From Dermabacter indicis (GTDB lineage Bacteria; Actinomycetota; Actinomycetes; Actinomycetales; Dermabacteraceae), in the NCBI GenBank assembly GCA_001403775.1, contig CYUG01000011.1, positions 1-64,000 on the forward strand: 64,000 nt of DNA, in the 5' to 3' direction. Every line of letters starts with the position of its first letter. The stretch's first letter is position 1. Shown piece after piece: positions 56,015 through 60,691 of this stretch. Made by a program: the position numbers and the translations under genes. The notes beneath the pieces were generated by a model. The model saw only the letters and a program-made list of their open reading frames with translations, ran no database searches and had not been told where the DNA came from.

Positions 56015-56053
56015 AGGGCACCAATTCTACGACGTTTTATGAGGGAAGCGCCT

Positions 56054-56059
56054 TATCCT
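56054..56059 (+). promoter_or_regulatory. Putative -10 element of the UGPase gene
   Basis: TATCCT, then six bases, then the ATG at 56066, without a ribosome site. It shares a 51-base divergent region with metG. Confidence 0.45.
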
Positions 56060-56065
56060 GGACTC

Positions 56066-57439
56066 ATGAGTTACGACAACGACACGAATGCCACCGGACT
56101 CACGCTCGCTCAGCAGAAAATGCGCGAGGCGGGCGTGGCGGAAGCTGCCATTAACGTCTTCAGCGACTTTTACCACCAGCTTGAGCAGGGCGTGACCGGG
56201 TCGATCCCGGAAGAGACGATCTCGCCGCTCACCGAGGTAGATCGACTCGCCGATGTCGAGGTTGATCCCGAGGTTGCGAAGGATGCTTTCTCGAAGCTCG
56301 TTGTCATCAACCTCAATGGTGGGCTTGGCACCTCGATGGGCATGGATCGCGCGAAGTCTCTGCTCCCTGTCCGCGACGGAAAGAGCTTCCTCGAGATCAT
56401 CGTCGAGCAAGTGCTCGCCGCTCGAACGAAGACTGGCGCCCGCCTCCCGCTTCTGTTTATGAACTCGTTCCGCACGCGCGAGGACACCCTCGAGGTGCTC
56501 GCTAAATATCCCGACCTCCAGGTGGGGGATCTGCCGCTCGACTTCCTCCAGAACAAGGAGCCGAAGCTCCGCCGCGACGATCTCACGCCCGTCGAATTCC
56601 CCGAGAACCCGGAGCTGGAATGGTGCCCGCCGGGCCACGGCGATATTTACACGGCCCTTCTCACCTCGGGCGTGCTCGATGCGCTTCTTGAGCAGGGTTT
56701 TCGTTACGCATCGATCTCGAACTCGGACAACCTCGGCACGGTTCCTTCGCCCGAGATTGCCGGGTGGTTTGCCGCCTCGGGTGCCCCGTACGCCGCGGAG
56801 CTGTGCCGCCGCACGGCCGCAGACCGCAAGGGCGGGCACCTTGCGATCCGCAAATCCGACTCCCGCCTCATCCTGCGTGATACCGCCCAAACCCCGGCGG
56901 AGCAGATGGAGTACTTCACCGATGAACACCGCCACCCGTTCTTCCACACGAACAACCTGTGGTTTGATCTCGTGAAGCTCAAGGAGATCCTCACCGAGCG
57001 TGAGGGTGTCATGGGCCTTCCACTCATCCGCAACGAAAAGACTGTTGATCCTTCCGATAAGTCAAGCACCCCCGTCTACCAGATTGAATCGGCGATGGGA
57101 GCGGCTATCGAGGTGTTCGAGGGCGCGACCGCGATTGTGGTGGACCGCTCGCGTTTCTTGCCTGTGAAAACGACGAGCGATCTGCTGCTCGTGCGCTCCG
57201 ACGTGTATGCACTCAGCGACGAATTCGCACTCGAAAAGGTCGTGGACAAGGCGCCACTCGTCAAGCTCGCCGATGGCCCCTACAAGCTCGTGGGTGACTT
57301 CGAGAAGCGTTTCCCGGGTGGTGCGCCGAGCCTTAAAGACGCGTCTTCCCTGACCGTTGAGGGGGATTGGACGTTCAATGAGGGCGCCCGGATTGAAGGT
57401 GACGTGACCCTCGGAGCTGAGGGCGGAATCCTCCCGTAG
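56066..57439 (+). CDS. UTP-glucose-1-phosphate uridylyltransferase (eukaryote-type fold)
   Basis: 457 residues of the UDPGP family. The nucleotide-binding loop LNGGLGTSMGMDRAKS near residue 75 is diagnostic. FMNSFRTREDT near 131 and SNSDNLGTV near 220 are further signatures, and a C-terminal beta-helix part ends the protein. It makes UDP-glucose for glycans or glycogen-linked trehalose paths. This type differs from bacterial GalU. The ATG at 56066 is chosen over a much longer frame that runs antisense to metG. Confidence 0.93.
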   Translation: MSYDNDTNATGLTLAQQKMREAGVAEAAINVFSDFYHQLEQGVTGSIPEETISPLTEVDRLADVEVDPEVAKDAFSKLVVINLNGGLGTSMGMDRAKSLLPVRDGKSFLEIIVEQVLAARTKTGARLPLLFMNSFRTREDTLEVLAKYPDLQVGDLPLDFLQNKEPKLRRDDLTPVEFPENPELEWCPPGHGDIYTALLTSGVLDALLEQGFRYASISNSDNLGTVPSPEIAGWFAASGAPYAAELCRRTAADRKGGHLAIRKSDSRLILRDTAQTPAEQMEYFTDEHRHPFFHTNNLWFDLVKLKEILTEREGVMGLPLIRNEKTVDPSDKSSTPVYQIESAMGAAIEVFEGATAIVVDRSRFLPVKTTSDLLLVRSDVYALSDEFALEKVVDKAPLVKLADGPYKLVGDFEKRFPGGAPSLKDASSLTVEGDWTFNEGARIEGDVTLGAEGGILP

Positions 57440-57440
57440 T

Positions 57441-57480
57441 TCCCCTCCTCGAATTGCATAGAGGACGCGGGGGTTTGGTG
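57441..57480 (+). repeat. Short repeat, left copy (inverted)
   Basis: Right after the UGPase stop. Its reverse complement contains AAACCCCCG, eight bases, then CTATGCAATTC. It matches the two copies near 59762-59845 at about 22 of 26 core positions, in inverted orientation to them. All three lie just downstream of a gene end. See findings. Confidence 0.75.
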
Positions 57481-57553
57481 CGGTGCATGTGGCCCGCCCA
57501 GGCCCCCGATTCCATGCTACGCTGCCTGCCAATCACCATTGAGGCGCTAGGCC

Positions 57554-57595
57554 TTGGCGAGACTCCGCTAAGTCGAGCGTATGCCGGCTCGCCAA
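57554..57595. repeat. 8-bp inverted repeat in intergenic stretch
   Basis: TTGGCGAG at 57554-57561 and CTCGCCAA at 57588-57595 can form a hairpin with a 26-base loop. It lies in the 247 bases between the left repeat and the lipoprotein gene, which contain no evident gene. Purpose unknown. Confidence 0.45.
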
Positions 57596-57726
57596 ACTCT
57601 CTTCGCTTATGAAGACTTTCCACATTCTCCAAACACCCGTTGCGCGGGTCCTAACGTTCTGGTTGGCTATGTGACATGGGCCTCGCTCGGGGGAGTGGGG
57701 TTGCGGTGACCTGGATGGGGGAGTGC

Positions 57727-58410
57727 ATGAAAAGTAGGCCGGCACAGATTTTTGGTGCGTTTAGTGTCGCGGTTGTGATGGCGGCTGGGTTAGTGGGCTG
57801 CGGTGGGAGTGGGGCTGCTGGCGGTCCGACGCCTGTCGCGCAGTCATCCAGCTCTCCGCTGAGCAGTGATGCCGGCGGTTCAGATTCGGGTGGTGGCAGT
57901 GATGGCGGCGGTGAAGCCTCCGGCCGCACGCCGAATCTTCCTCCAGAGAATGCCGCGTTGGAGGCTCCTGACTTCAAGGACTATACGGGCATCAAATATG
58001 AGACCGATCAGGGTGCACAGGAGACGGTTCGGTTCTTCTTCGATGCGATGTATTACGGGTATGCCACCGGCGATATCTCGCCCTTCCAACGCGTTGTCGA
58101 TGAGTCTGGATGCGAAGGATGCGCAAAGATTATCAACGATGTCGGAGCATGGAGAACGTCGGGAAGTTACCTCACACCTTCTAAAAATACGACTCTTTCA
58201 CTTGAGCGCATGAAGGATGAAGACTCTTATCGCGGGCGCACTCCGATCTATTACAGCTTTGAACGGAGTGCGGCGGTCAAAAAAACTGTAGACGGGAAGT
58301 CAGAAAACTTCCCACAGCAAAATTATGAAGCGTCGGCACTGCTGGCTTGGCAGAACGATCACTGGGAAGTAGTAGCCGTGTCGTGGCGAAAGAAGGCTAC
58401 CGATGAATAG
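57727..58410 (+). CDS. DUF6318-type lipoprotein
   Basis: 227 residues. The signal peptide ends in a lipobox (LVGC near residue 25), so the protein should be lipid-anchored outside. A Gly/Ser-rich linker (about 26-75) precedes a C-terminal domain with ETVRFFFDAMYYGYATGD and a Cys pair in SGCEGCAKI. This resembles DUF6318 of Micrococcales, function unknown. ATG at 57727 has a GGGGGAG site; an upstream ATG at 57676 gives no proper signal. Base composition looks less GC-biased than neighbours. Confidence 0.8.
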   Translation: MKSRPAQIFGAFSVAVVMAAGLVGCGGSGAAGGPTPVAQSSSSPLSSDAGGSDSGGGSDGGGEASGRTPNLPPENAALEAPDFKDYTGIKYETDQGAQETVRFFFDAMYYGYATGDISPFQRVVDESGCEGCAKIINDVGAWRTSGSYLTPSKNTTLSLERMKDEDSYRGRTPIYYSFERSAAVKKTVDGKSENFPQQNYEASALLAWQNDHWEVVAVSWRKKATDE

Positions 58411-59416
58411 CCGCTTTTCGTGGCCATCCTTGATCGCTTTGCTCGTCTTGATAAGTATGTCCTCACCGGCGAATCTGGCGAGAGCTGAAGATTCGGATAG
58501 TCAATTCGATGCAGGCTTTACAGATGGCGCTATCAGAATAGATGGCCACAAGCGTGGTCGTGGTGATTCTGTTGAGCGGCCGGTGGATATGTCGCCGGGG
58601 AAGCGTGATGCGGTGACGGATGCCCCGCGGCGGGTGTGGGTGTCGGCGAATGATCGGGATTTGGGTTGCCGAAGCGGTGGGCCTGATGCGTTCCAAACGA
58701 TTGCTGTAACGTCGTTGTGTCGCTCCGTGCGGGCAGCATGTCCTTTAGTTTTTCCAGAGGCGTCAGTAGTGGTGGGGCGTGAGGTGGAGGCGTCGACGGG
58801 TGCGCCGATTTTTGGGACGGAGCGTTTGTCGGGGTGTTCGTCGTCTTCGGGTTCGGGTAGCGGGGGACCTGTGATGCCAGTCGTGTCACAGGAGGATTTT
58901 CGTTCGCTTGGGGTGCGTCCTTTGGTGGCGCATTTGGGTCCGCCTGGACAGTGGATTCCGGTGGGCATCGACATGATTGTGTGGGCCGAGTCGGATGTAC
59001 AGGTGTTTGAGGTGGAGATGTTTGGGCAGCCGGTGCGGGTGCGGGCGACGCCGGTGAAGTATGTGTGGGATTTTGGTGATGGGACGGTGTTGACGACGTC
59101 GTTTCCGGGTCGGCCACATCCATCGAGGGATGTGTCAATGCGGTATGTGGGGCAGGGGTGGTATGAGGTTTCGCTTGTGACGGTGTTTAGTGGGGAGTTT
59201 TCGGTGGCTGGTGGTCCGTGGCAGCCGATTCGAGGGACGGTTGAGGTGGCTTCGGAGAAGAAGTGGATTTATTCGGACGTCCGGCAGTCGCGTCTTGTGG
59301 GGGACGAAGTGCCCAAGGAGTATGTGGACATTCCTGAGCGAGGCGCCGACACGCTCGGCCCAATAAACCCGGAAGCCAAAAAAGAGACATTGACAAAGCC
59401 GCGGAAGAAACACTGA
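58403..59416 (+). CDS. Secreted protein with PKD-like motif
   Basis: 337 residues. An N-terminal signal peptide (about 1-28, ending ANLARA) is followed by a polar region with several Cys and a Gly/Ser stretch. A beta-rich part with KYVWDFGDGT near 225 recalls the PKD fold's WDFGDG. The end is basic. Function unknown. The ATG overlaps the lipoprotein stop, so the two form a coupled pair, an arrangement I associate with Micrococcales. Codon use is G/T-rich and unlike the surrounding core genes. Confidence 0.78.
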   Translation: MNSRFSWPSLIALLVLISMSSPANLARAEDSDSQFDAGFTDGAIRIDGHKRGRGDSVERPVDMSPGKRDAVTDAPRRVWVSANDRDLGCRSGGPDAFQTIAVTSLCRSVRAACPLVFPEASVVVGREVEASTGAPIFGTERLSGCSSSSGSGSGGPVMPVVSQEDFRSLGVRPLVAHLGPPGQWIPVGIDMIVWAESDVQVFEVEMFGQPVRVRATPVKYVWDFGDGTVLTTSFPGRPHPSRDVSMRYVGQGWYEVSLVTVFSGEFSVAGGPWQPIRGTVEVASEKKWIYSDVRQSRLVGDEVPKEYVDIPERGADTLGPINPEAKKETLTKPRKKH

Positions 59417-59761
59417 TTGATTGCTGGTTTTCGCCACCCTGATTCTCATGGATGCTGGGTACCTCAATTAGCGCTTCGTGCGGTGAACTGCTTCACGTCG
59501 GTTGGGGAAGGCGAGAGAGGCTGGAGAAGAGGGGGAGGTCGGGGCCCCTTGCTGAACAGGCGAGCCTAGGTGAGGTTGGGAAATCCAAGAAGCGGAGCCA
59601 GCTGAACAAGTACGGCGGAATGAGACCGAAGCTACCGTCGGACCTGGGCTGCGAAGCCAGTGACCACAGGCCTTAGACCCACTCCCTTGAGCCGTCTCGC
59701 ATCACGATCGGATGACGCAGAGAAGAGGAGGGGGGAAGGCACCGCTACCGGTGATCTCTAG
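59417..59761. other. Non-coding stretch with possible structured RNA
   Basis: No convincing gene is seen in about 345 bases. From 59478 the sequence begins GTGCGG and contains short self-complementary runs, for example GGCTGCGAAGCC, a stem closed by a GNRA-type GCGA loop, near 59648-59659. This resembles in a general way the 5' part (domain I) of a bacterial group II intron, but I cannot confirm it. It could also be another structured RNA or decayed DNA. Confidence 0.3.
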
Positions 59762-59795
59762 GCCTCCCAAACCCCCGCAGCGCCTATGCAATGCG
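59762..59795 (-). repeat. Short repeat, right copy 1
   Basis: Contains AAACCCCCGCAGCGCCTATG followed by CAATGC, matching copy 2 at about 22 of 26 positions. Direct repeat with copy 2, inverted relative to the left copy. Confidence 0.75.
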
Positions 59796-59803
59796 AAGTG
59801 GAT

Positions 59804-59845
59804 GCCTCCAAACCCCCACAACCCCTATGCAATTCAAGGGAGGGG
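59804..59845 (-). repeat. Short repeat, right copy 2
   Basis: Contains AAACCCCCACAACCCCTATG followed by CAATTC and a G-rich end. It covers the pdxY stop codon (59834-59836). It shares CTATGCAATTC exactly with the reverse complement of the left copy. Confidence 0.75.
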
Positions 59846-60691
59846 GAGAGGGTGGGCCTTGAATTTCGTGTCCGGATTGACGAACGCCTCCTGACTTTCC
59901 ACGATCAAAAGTTCGCGCGCATCGACCTTGAGAGTGCGATCGATCAGCTCGAACACCGAGGCGGCCGTCTTCTCGAGAGCTTCGATGGGGCCGGCGCCAC
60001 CGAGTAAGTGCGCCGTGAAAAGCGCCGTCGTCACATCTCCACTGCCATGAACCTTGCGCTTGAGGCGCGGGGTCGAAATGAGGTACGCGCCGGAAGAATC
60101 GGCGACGAGAAGCTCGAGGGTGCCGGACTCAGTCACGTCAGTGAGCACGCTCGTGACGAGAACGGTTTCCGGGCCCTTTGCTCGTAGCTGTTCGACCGCC
60201 TTGACAGTGCCCTCGAGCGTAGAAACATCGACGCCCGTGAGCACACCGAGCTCGAAGTGATTCGGGGTGAGAACATCCGCTGCCGGAACAACCTTGTTCG
60301 CCATGAGCGGCGGAATATCGGAATCGACATAGAACCCTTCGCCTGCATTGCCCATGACAGGATCGGCGATATACATAGCGTGTGGATTGTGCTTCTTCAC
60401 GCGCTTCACGGCATCGAGGATGACGTCGGTGACGGCAGCGGAGCCCTGATAGCCACTGAGGATAGCGTCGGCCTCGCCGAGAACGCCGAGTTCCTCGAGA
60501 CCAAGCACAACGTCGTGCACGTCTTTTGCGTCGATGACCGGGCCGCGGAACGTGGCGTGGCCCGTGTGGTTGGAAAAGAGGACGGTGTTGACCGGCCACA
60601 CCTCGTGTCCGAGTCGCTGGAGCGGGAACACCGCTGCGGAGTTGCCCGCGTGGCCGTAAGCGACGGCGGATTGAATCGACAGAATTTTCAT
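59834..60691 (-). CDS. pdxY: Pyridoxal kinase
   Basis: 285 residues of the ribokinase-like family. VAYGHAGNSAAVFPLQRLG near residue 10, ILSGYQGSA near 77, ADPVMGNAGEGFYV near 109 and the phosphate site HGSGDVTTALFTAHLLGG near 219 identify PdxY. It makes pyridoxal 5'-phosphate by salvage. The ATG has a GGAGTGA site. Its last codons lie within the short repeat. Confidence 0.94.
   Translation of the reverse strand: MKILSIQSAVAYGHAGNSAAVFPLQRLGHEVWPVNTVLFSNHTGHATFRGPVIDAKDVHDVVLGLEELGVLGEADAILSGYQGSAAVTDVILDAVKRVKKHNPHAMYIADPVMGNAGEGFYVDSDIPPLMANKVVPAADVLTPNHFELGVLTGVDVSTLEGTVKAVEQLRAKGPETVLVTSVLTDVTESGTLELLVADSSGAYLISTPRLKRKVHGSGDVTTALFTAHLLGGAGPIEALEKTAASVFELIDRTLKVDARELLIVESQEAFVNPDTKFKAHPLPLP

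Follow-up and report, generated by a model that had tools for sequence, protein, structure and literature searches.

A conserved 26-nucleotide motif behind Dermabacter genes is probably a clade-specific 3'-end module

Three Dermabacter genomes carry, behind stop codons and also behind two tRNA genes, copies of a 26-nt motif, AAACCCCC-N7-CTATGCAATTC, which reads GAATTGCATAG..GGGGGTTT in the direction of the preceding gene. The copies have a characteristic position and orientation, they are conserved between species, and many of them, not all, have hairpin potential. Based on these sequence features we propose, with a probability of roughly 0.6, that the motif is a 3'-end module of transcription units which is specific to this clade and conserved in sequence; a transcription terminator would be its most likely form. 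The starting point was the window, i.e. the 64,000-nucleotide stretch of Dermabacter indicis DNA analysed here, in which three copies surround an accessory pocket between the genes for UTP-glucose-1-phosphate uridylyltransferase (UGPase) and a pdxY-type pyridoxal kinase. The first-pass annotation had allowed two readings of these copies, ends of a mobile or recombined segment or a family of 3'-end elements. The latter is now strongly supported by the fixed sense orientation next to stop codons and tRNA genes. The former is not supported as a property of this pocket; what weakly survives is a gain and loss of whole-gene cassettes in the gaps that facing copies border. Below, G000 is the genome of the window, G001 and G003 are the related motif-bearing Dermabacter genomes and G002 is a fourth Dermabacter genome.

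The three copies were located slightly inside the positions originally assigned to them (Table 1). The C-rich strand is minus, plus and plus, respectively, i.e. one inverted copy follows the UGPase stop and two direct copies lie at the pdxY end, as first described. The 26-base core was real, yet its spacer of eight variable bases was one base too long. Identities of about 22/26 apply to two pairs of copies; the third pair matches at 21/26. In shuffled sequence 0.02 matches were expected as compared to the three found, and the window contains no further copies. Copy 1 lies 11 nt from the UGPase stop behind a pyrimidine-rich leader, and such leaders are typical of the motif family (column composition of 127 copies). 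Copies 2 and 3 are 41 nt apart. The former is 39 nt from the pdxY stop; the latter, the best profile match in G000, overlaps the pdxY stop codon by 2 nt. Both genes in the pocket had been correctly called as exported proteins; Pfam identified a DUF6318 lipoprotein, for which 57727 is the likelier start, and an exported PKD-like protein. Sequence homologous to the adjacent non-coding stretch adjoins pdxY in G003.

Table 1. Features at the UGPase-pdxY junction of the window.
Feature	Position	Strand	Basis
UGPase, upstream gene of copy 1	56027..57439	+	aa identity to the window's UGPase: G001 97%, G003 96%, G002 77%
Pyrimidine-rich leader TTCCCCTCCTC, UGPase stop to copy 1	57440..57450	+	sequence
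Motif copy 1	57451..57476	+	sense strand GAATTGCATAGAGGACGCGGGGGTTT; profile match 30.3 bits, E 6.7e-7
Predicted hairpin, 5' arm = 3' half of copy 1 (CGGGGGUUUGG...CCAGGCCCCCG)	57468..57508	+	MFE fold
DUF6318 lipoprotein gene, pocket cassette gene 1	57676..58410	+	Pfam PF19843 E 1.8e-11
Exported PKD-domain-like protein, pocket cassette gene 2	58403..59416	+	Pfam PKD E 6.4e-5, just short of the curated Pfam cut-off
Non-coding stretch, PKD gene to copies 2 and 3	59417..59768	.	82% identity block, L045:3422-5401 vs L080
Motif copy 2	59769..59794	-	sense strand GCATTGCATAGGCGCTGCGGGGGTTT; profile match 27.7 bits, E 4.5e-6
Motif copy 3	59810..59835	-	sense strand GAATTGCATAGGGGTTGTGGGGGTTT; profile match 42 bits, E 1.4e-10
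pdxY-type pyridoxal kinase, precedes copies 2 and 3	59834..60691	-	Pfam Phos_pyr_kin E 8.3e-22

The motif is not private to the pocket. With up to 3 mismatches 37 copies were found in G000. A sequence-only profile built from 61 copies detected 39 (G000), 47 (G001) and 43 (G003) copies at E < 1e-3, with a sharp gap to the background and almost no tail of degenerate copies; inspection by eye reveals one decayed copy in G000 (L097). The search of genome and relatives suggested at the outset thus showed that the motif recurs genome-wide in three Dermabacter and has no clear copy in G002, where no profile match fell below E 0.8. Another 43 genomes of the family were free of the motif at 3 mismatches, and 149 genomes sampled from the order gave, outside G000, marginal partial matches only. 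An Rfam search of the window and the motif loci returned rRNA and tRNA only; no known RNA family covers the motif. In open-licence papers we found no description of a Dermabacter repeat of this kind. Within 300 kb of G002 no similar gene-end repeat was detected, only short G+C-rich palindromic k-mers which look like ordinary hairpins, and the pdxY end of G002 has a very strong hairpin of its own.

Placement was analysed with 127 distinct copies from the three motif-bearing genomes, grouped into 75 clusters; because genes were predicted by a simple codon-score caller, the figures are approximate. A same-sense stop codon was present -12 to 30 nt upstream of 64/127 copies, as against 7/127 in the mirrored orientation (chance 0.0174), and 59/75 clusters contained at least one such gene-end copy. 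In about one fifth of the clusters no copy immediately follows the predicted end of a protein gene; some of these clusters are preceded by tRNAs. A copy begins 10-12 nt after the end of two tRNA genes, namely tRNA-Gly(CCC), seen in G001, and tRNA-Gly(TCC), which all three genomes have close to the trigger-factor gene. G000, unlike G001 and G003, has an rve-type transposase gene (L171:613-1818) that separates dcd from the tRNA-Gly(CCC)/motif region. At some genes the stop codon falls inside the motif, and some antisense copies extend into the beginning of the following gene (L096). The upstream genes, named from sequence, include UGPase, pdxY, qcrB, gnd, gpmA, purM, clpB, leuS and map. These are unrelated housekeeping genes without a common function, and a regulon was therefore rejected. 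With only 22-28 clusters per genome, most transcription units must end without the motif. Tandem and inverted arrays occur. Adjacent copies of opposite orientation face each other in 23/23 pairs, with 0 diverging, and the commonest start-to-start distance of facing copies is 38 nt, i.e. a 12-nt loop.

A comparable placement is known from REP families and BIMEs, which are intergenic, are found between convergent genes and no more than 20 bp from 3' ends, occur singly or in inverted and direct arrays and form RNA hairpins (PMC3733652). The motif resembles them in placement, including the closeness to the 3' ends of genes documented by the counts above, in its arrays and in the RNA hairpins predicted at many copies, and might be a selfish repeat which spread by insertion next to gene ends and was tolerated there. 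We consider such an origin quite improbable. The unit is not a palindrome and lacks a GTAG or CGTC end tag (consensus of 127 copies). The RAYT tyrosine transposase domain Y1_Tnp (PF01797), found in 5 control genomes, was absent from all four Dermabacter genomes. The orientation of the motif is locked to the upstream gene, degenerate copies are almost missing, and the sites are orthologous: every site in G000 has a counterpart at the orthologous place in G001 or G003. In 33 orthologous pairs the motif was 93% identical compared to 76% and 80% for the preceding and the following 40 nt, respectively. At one intergenic place the motif in G000 (L093) is opposite in orientation to that in G001 and G003 (L069, L049); no tRNA or Rfam RNA precedes it there. 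A 2-kb stretch around another copy is 98% identical between G001 and G003 (L061, L085), with most other sites at 80-93%; no counterpart of this stretch was seen in G000.

Can the motif RNA fold? The UGPase end (57437-57525) has an MFE of -42.1 kcal/mol (z -3.05), and the hairpin arms are also present in G001 and G003. Copy 1 would find its partner within the sequence that extends to 57508, so the copies at pdxY, at a distance of 2.3 kb, are not needed. Paired facing copies gave fold z-scores of -7.9, -5.9 and -6.6, single copies with partial partners -5.1, -3.2, -3.6 and -5.3. For 68 copies with no other copy, inverted or in sense, within 70 nt, the sequence downstream was more complementary to the G-rich half than shuffles were (mean z -1.05, 22% below -2), as compared to +0.19 upstream. 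The ends of pdxY in the window (z -0.35) and of tRNA-Gly(TCC) (z +0.24) gave no convincing hairpin. At none of the three window copies did a consensus scan identify a T-run terminator, and short T-runs exist at a few other motif sites only. The motif resembles intrinsic, Rho-independent terminators in that a G+C-rich hairpin is predicted directly after the stop codon at many sites, not all; it differs by the missing T-run at the window copies and by a conserved 26-nt primary sequence which includes an unpaired part. The two ends without a convincing hairpin and the missing T-run indicate that it is not a plain intrinsic terminator. Two further ideas were dismissed: pairing of the upstream pyrimidine tract with G-runs showed no covariation, and for a promoter on the C-rich strand no sigma-70-like site was found in 57300-60000.

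Conservation of an asymmetric 26-nt sequence outside any hairpin would also be expected of a double-stranded DNA site for a putative protein with a role in blocking RNA polymerase or in chromosome organisation; the RNA hairpin would then be incidental. In addition, direct copies in arrays are spaced at about 33-34, 41-44, 53-56 and 63-66 nt, which is close to whole helical turns. The Rayleigh R was 0.64 at 10.5 (n = 26; the copies are not independent), and 0.58 (p ~0.002) in a rough, hand-chosen set with one spacing per site. However, the spacing data are few and from related copies, the long complementary partners downstream would be superfluous, and no candidate protein was found. We judge a pure DNA site to be decidedly unlikely.

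Termination or 3'-end formation would be the most economical account of the gene-end position, the fixed sense orientation, the use behind protein and tRNA genes alike, the facing pairs and the hairpin potential. The proposed 3'-end module might operate as follows. Behind the stop codon or the mature tRNA end a pyrimidine-rich leader is followed by GRATTSCATAGRGGTTGTGGGGGTTW. The G-rich half may form the ascending arm when the RNA folds into a hairpin, and a second, inverted copy, often exactly 12 nt away, or a partial partner would provide the descending arm. With the inverted copy at this distance a single hairpin could serve both directions. The GAATTGCATAG half is conserved even where unpaired, hence it is probably the sequence itself that is read, by a putative factor or by RNA polymerase. 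A stricter version, in which a clade-specific factor binds the 26-base DNA or the nascent RNA behind selected protein and tRNA genes and stops RNA polymerase as a directional terminator, is conceivable, if rather doubtful. Factor-bound terminators exist in the TTF-I and Reb1 sites; the motif would be a bacterial counterpart, sometimes doubled as facing pairs.

In this scheme the pocket is probably a separate matter, i.e. gaps between facing gene ends would collect small cassettes. UGPase and pdxY run towards each other in G000, G001 and G002, separated by a variable space. This space harbors DUF6318-PKD genes in G000, G001 and G003, where the contigs break inside the pocket. In G002, unrelated genes are located there, among others a proline dehydrogenase/aldehyde dehydrogenase fusion and a GAPDH-like gene, and the motif is absent. 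In the G001 pocket (L042:3358-5447) the PKD gene is split by genes for a TetR-like regulator and a 499-aa MFS-type transporter, both named from sequence. The conserved genes UGPase and pdxY retain their motif copies in all three motif-bearing genomes, and elsewhere most motif sites flank no cassette. Both observations speak against mobile ends of the pocket. So do the copies scattered genome-wide behind unrelated genes, an outcome which the first-pass annotation had named in advance as contradicting mobile ends.

What supports a remnant of the mobile reading are cassettes at other junctions. Paralogues of the PKD-like gene exist at 3 places in G001, where two further DUF6318-PKD pairs are each located between facing motif copies. 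Between the G001 cassettes at UGPase-pdxY (L042) and at L056 homology extends from outer motif edge to outer motif edge and not beyond; 27 nt of homology past the motif at the right end proved to be a purine-rich chance similarity, not a copied pdxY end. A cassette in G001 (L052) is missing at the same site in G003 (L076) and G000 (L097). Accessory DUF6318 cassettes are located in motif pockets in all cases in G000 and G001 and in 2/3 in G003. The copC pocket is almost empty in G001; in G000 and G003 it contains an epimerase gene which is 94.5% identical between the two, as compared to 82-85% for the flanks. Furthermore, the 12-nt loop between two facing copies in G000 (L092) is the reverse complement of that in G001 and G003 (L066, L068), so a short segment has flipped between species. 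Possibly then the motif is a recombination or integration site in its own right, at which facing copies dock cassettes in a dRS3-like manner and a putative recombinase or homologous recombination swaps the DNA in between. Yet DUF6318-PKD genes spread in G002 without the motif, the motif is missing to the left of one G003 cassette, which adjoins an aconitase-like gene, and the majority of motif sites contain no cassette. The loops between paired copies vary from site to site, i.e. the pairs are not copies of one element, and alignment edges can coincide with the motif simply because the motif is conserved. The placement at gene ends, the orientation and the tRNA ends would need another reason. 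Plasmid and phage collections that were searched gave no match; an isolated one in a viral contig is likely due to chance. We therefore consider a dedicated recombination site unlikely. The spread without the motif, the missing left copy and the many empty sites rather suggest that facing-copy junctions exchange cassettes as a side effect of repeated sequence and permissive gene-end space; the repeated copies probably give recombination a short common anchor.

Two observations on pockets are added. At clpB-leuS (L161:1259-2754) a 1.4-kb pocket with a weak DUF559-like gene is located between facing copies in G000, G001 and G003; in G002 clpB and leuS nearly abut. G002 has 10 DUF6318 matches (L142-L145), several paired with PKD-like genes which share the C-terminus PKAKKTTLKYPGQNTKKKRR. 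This set is a separate lineage-specific expansion.

Among known repeats the motif works most like the DUS pairs of Neisseria, a short conserved sequence found singly and also as inverted pairs which face each other and fold into terminator hairpins (PMC3898611). In contrast to DUS with ~1900 copies of 10-12 nt, it has ~40 copies of 26 nt, which are placed at gene ends and oriented in sense. At 39-47 copies per genome it is far from the hundreds to thousands of an uptake sequence, which is bound in DNA uptake. Neisseria dRS3/NIME arrays and minimal mobile elements consist of short repeats flanking intergenic gaps with strain-variable gene content (PMC3898611). Similarly, the motif flanks gaps of variable gene content, and one pair of conserved genes can enclose different whole-gene cassettes, in this case when species rather than strains are compared. 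dRS3, however, is targeted by phage, has terminal inverted repeats of 6 bp and numbers ~700 copies. MITEs or transposons with terminal inverted repeats would have a common internal sequence; the loops differ by locus, and in the pocket comparison only the DUF6318-PKD cassettes share interior sequence between copies.

In Streptomyces avermitilis Rho-independent termination was reported not to be prevalent, and a U-rich motif is located at about a quarter of the mapped ends (PMC8780764). Transcript ends in high-G+C actinobacteria are poorly understood, and a 26-base gene-end sequence would offer a defined and testable entry point, with the sister species G002, which lacks the motif, as a natural comparison. 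Inverted repeats around an accessory pocket, finally, need not be the ends of a mobile element.
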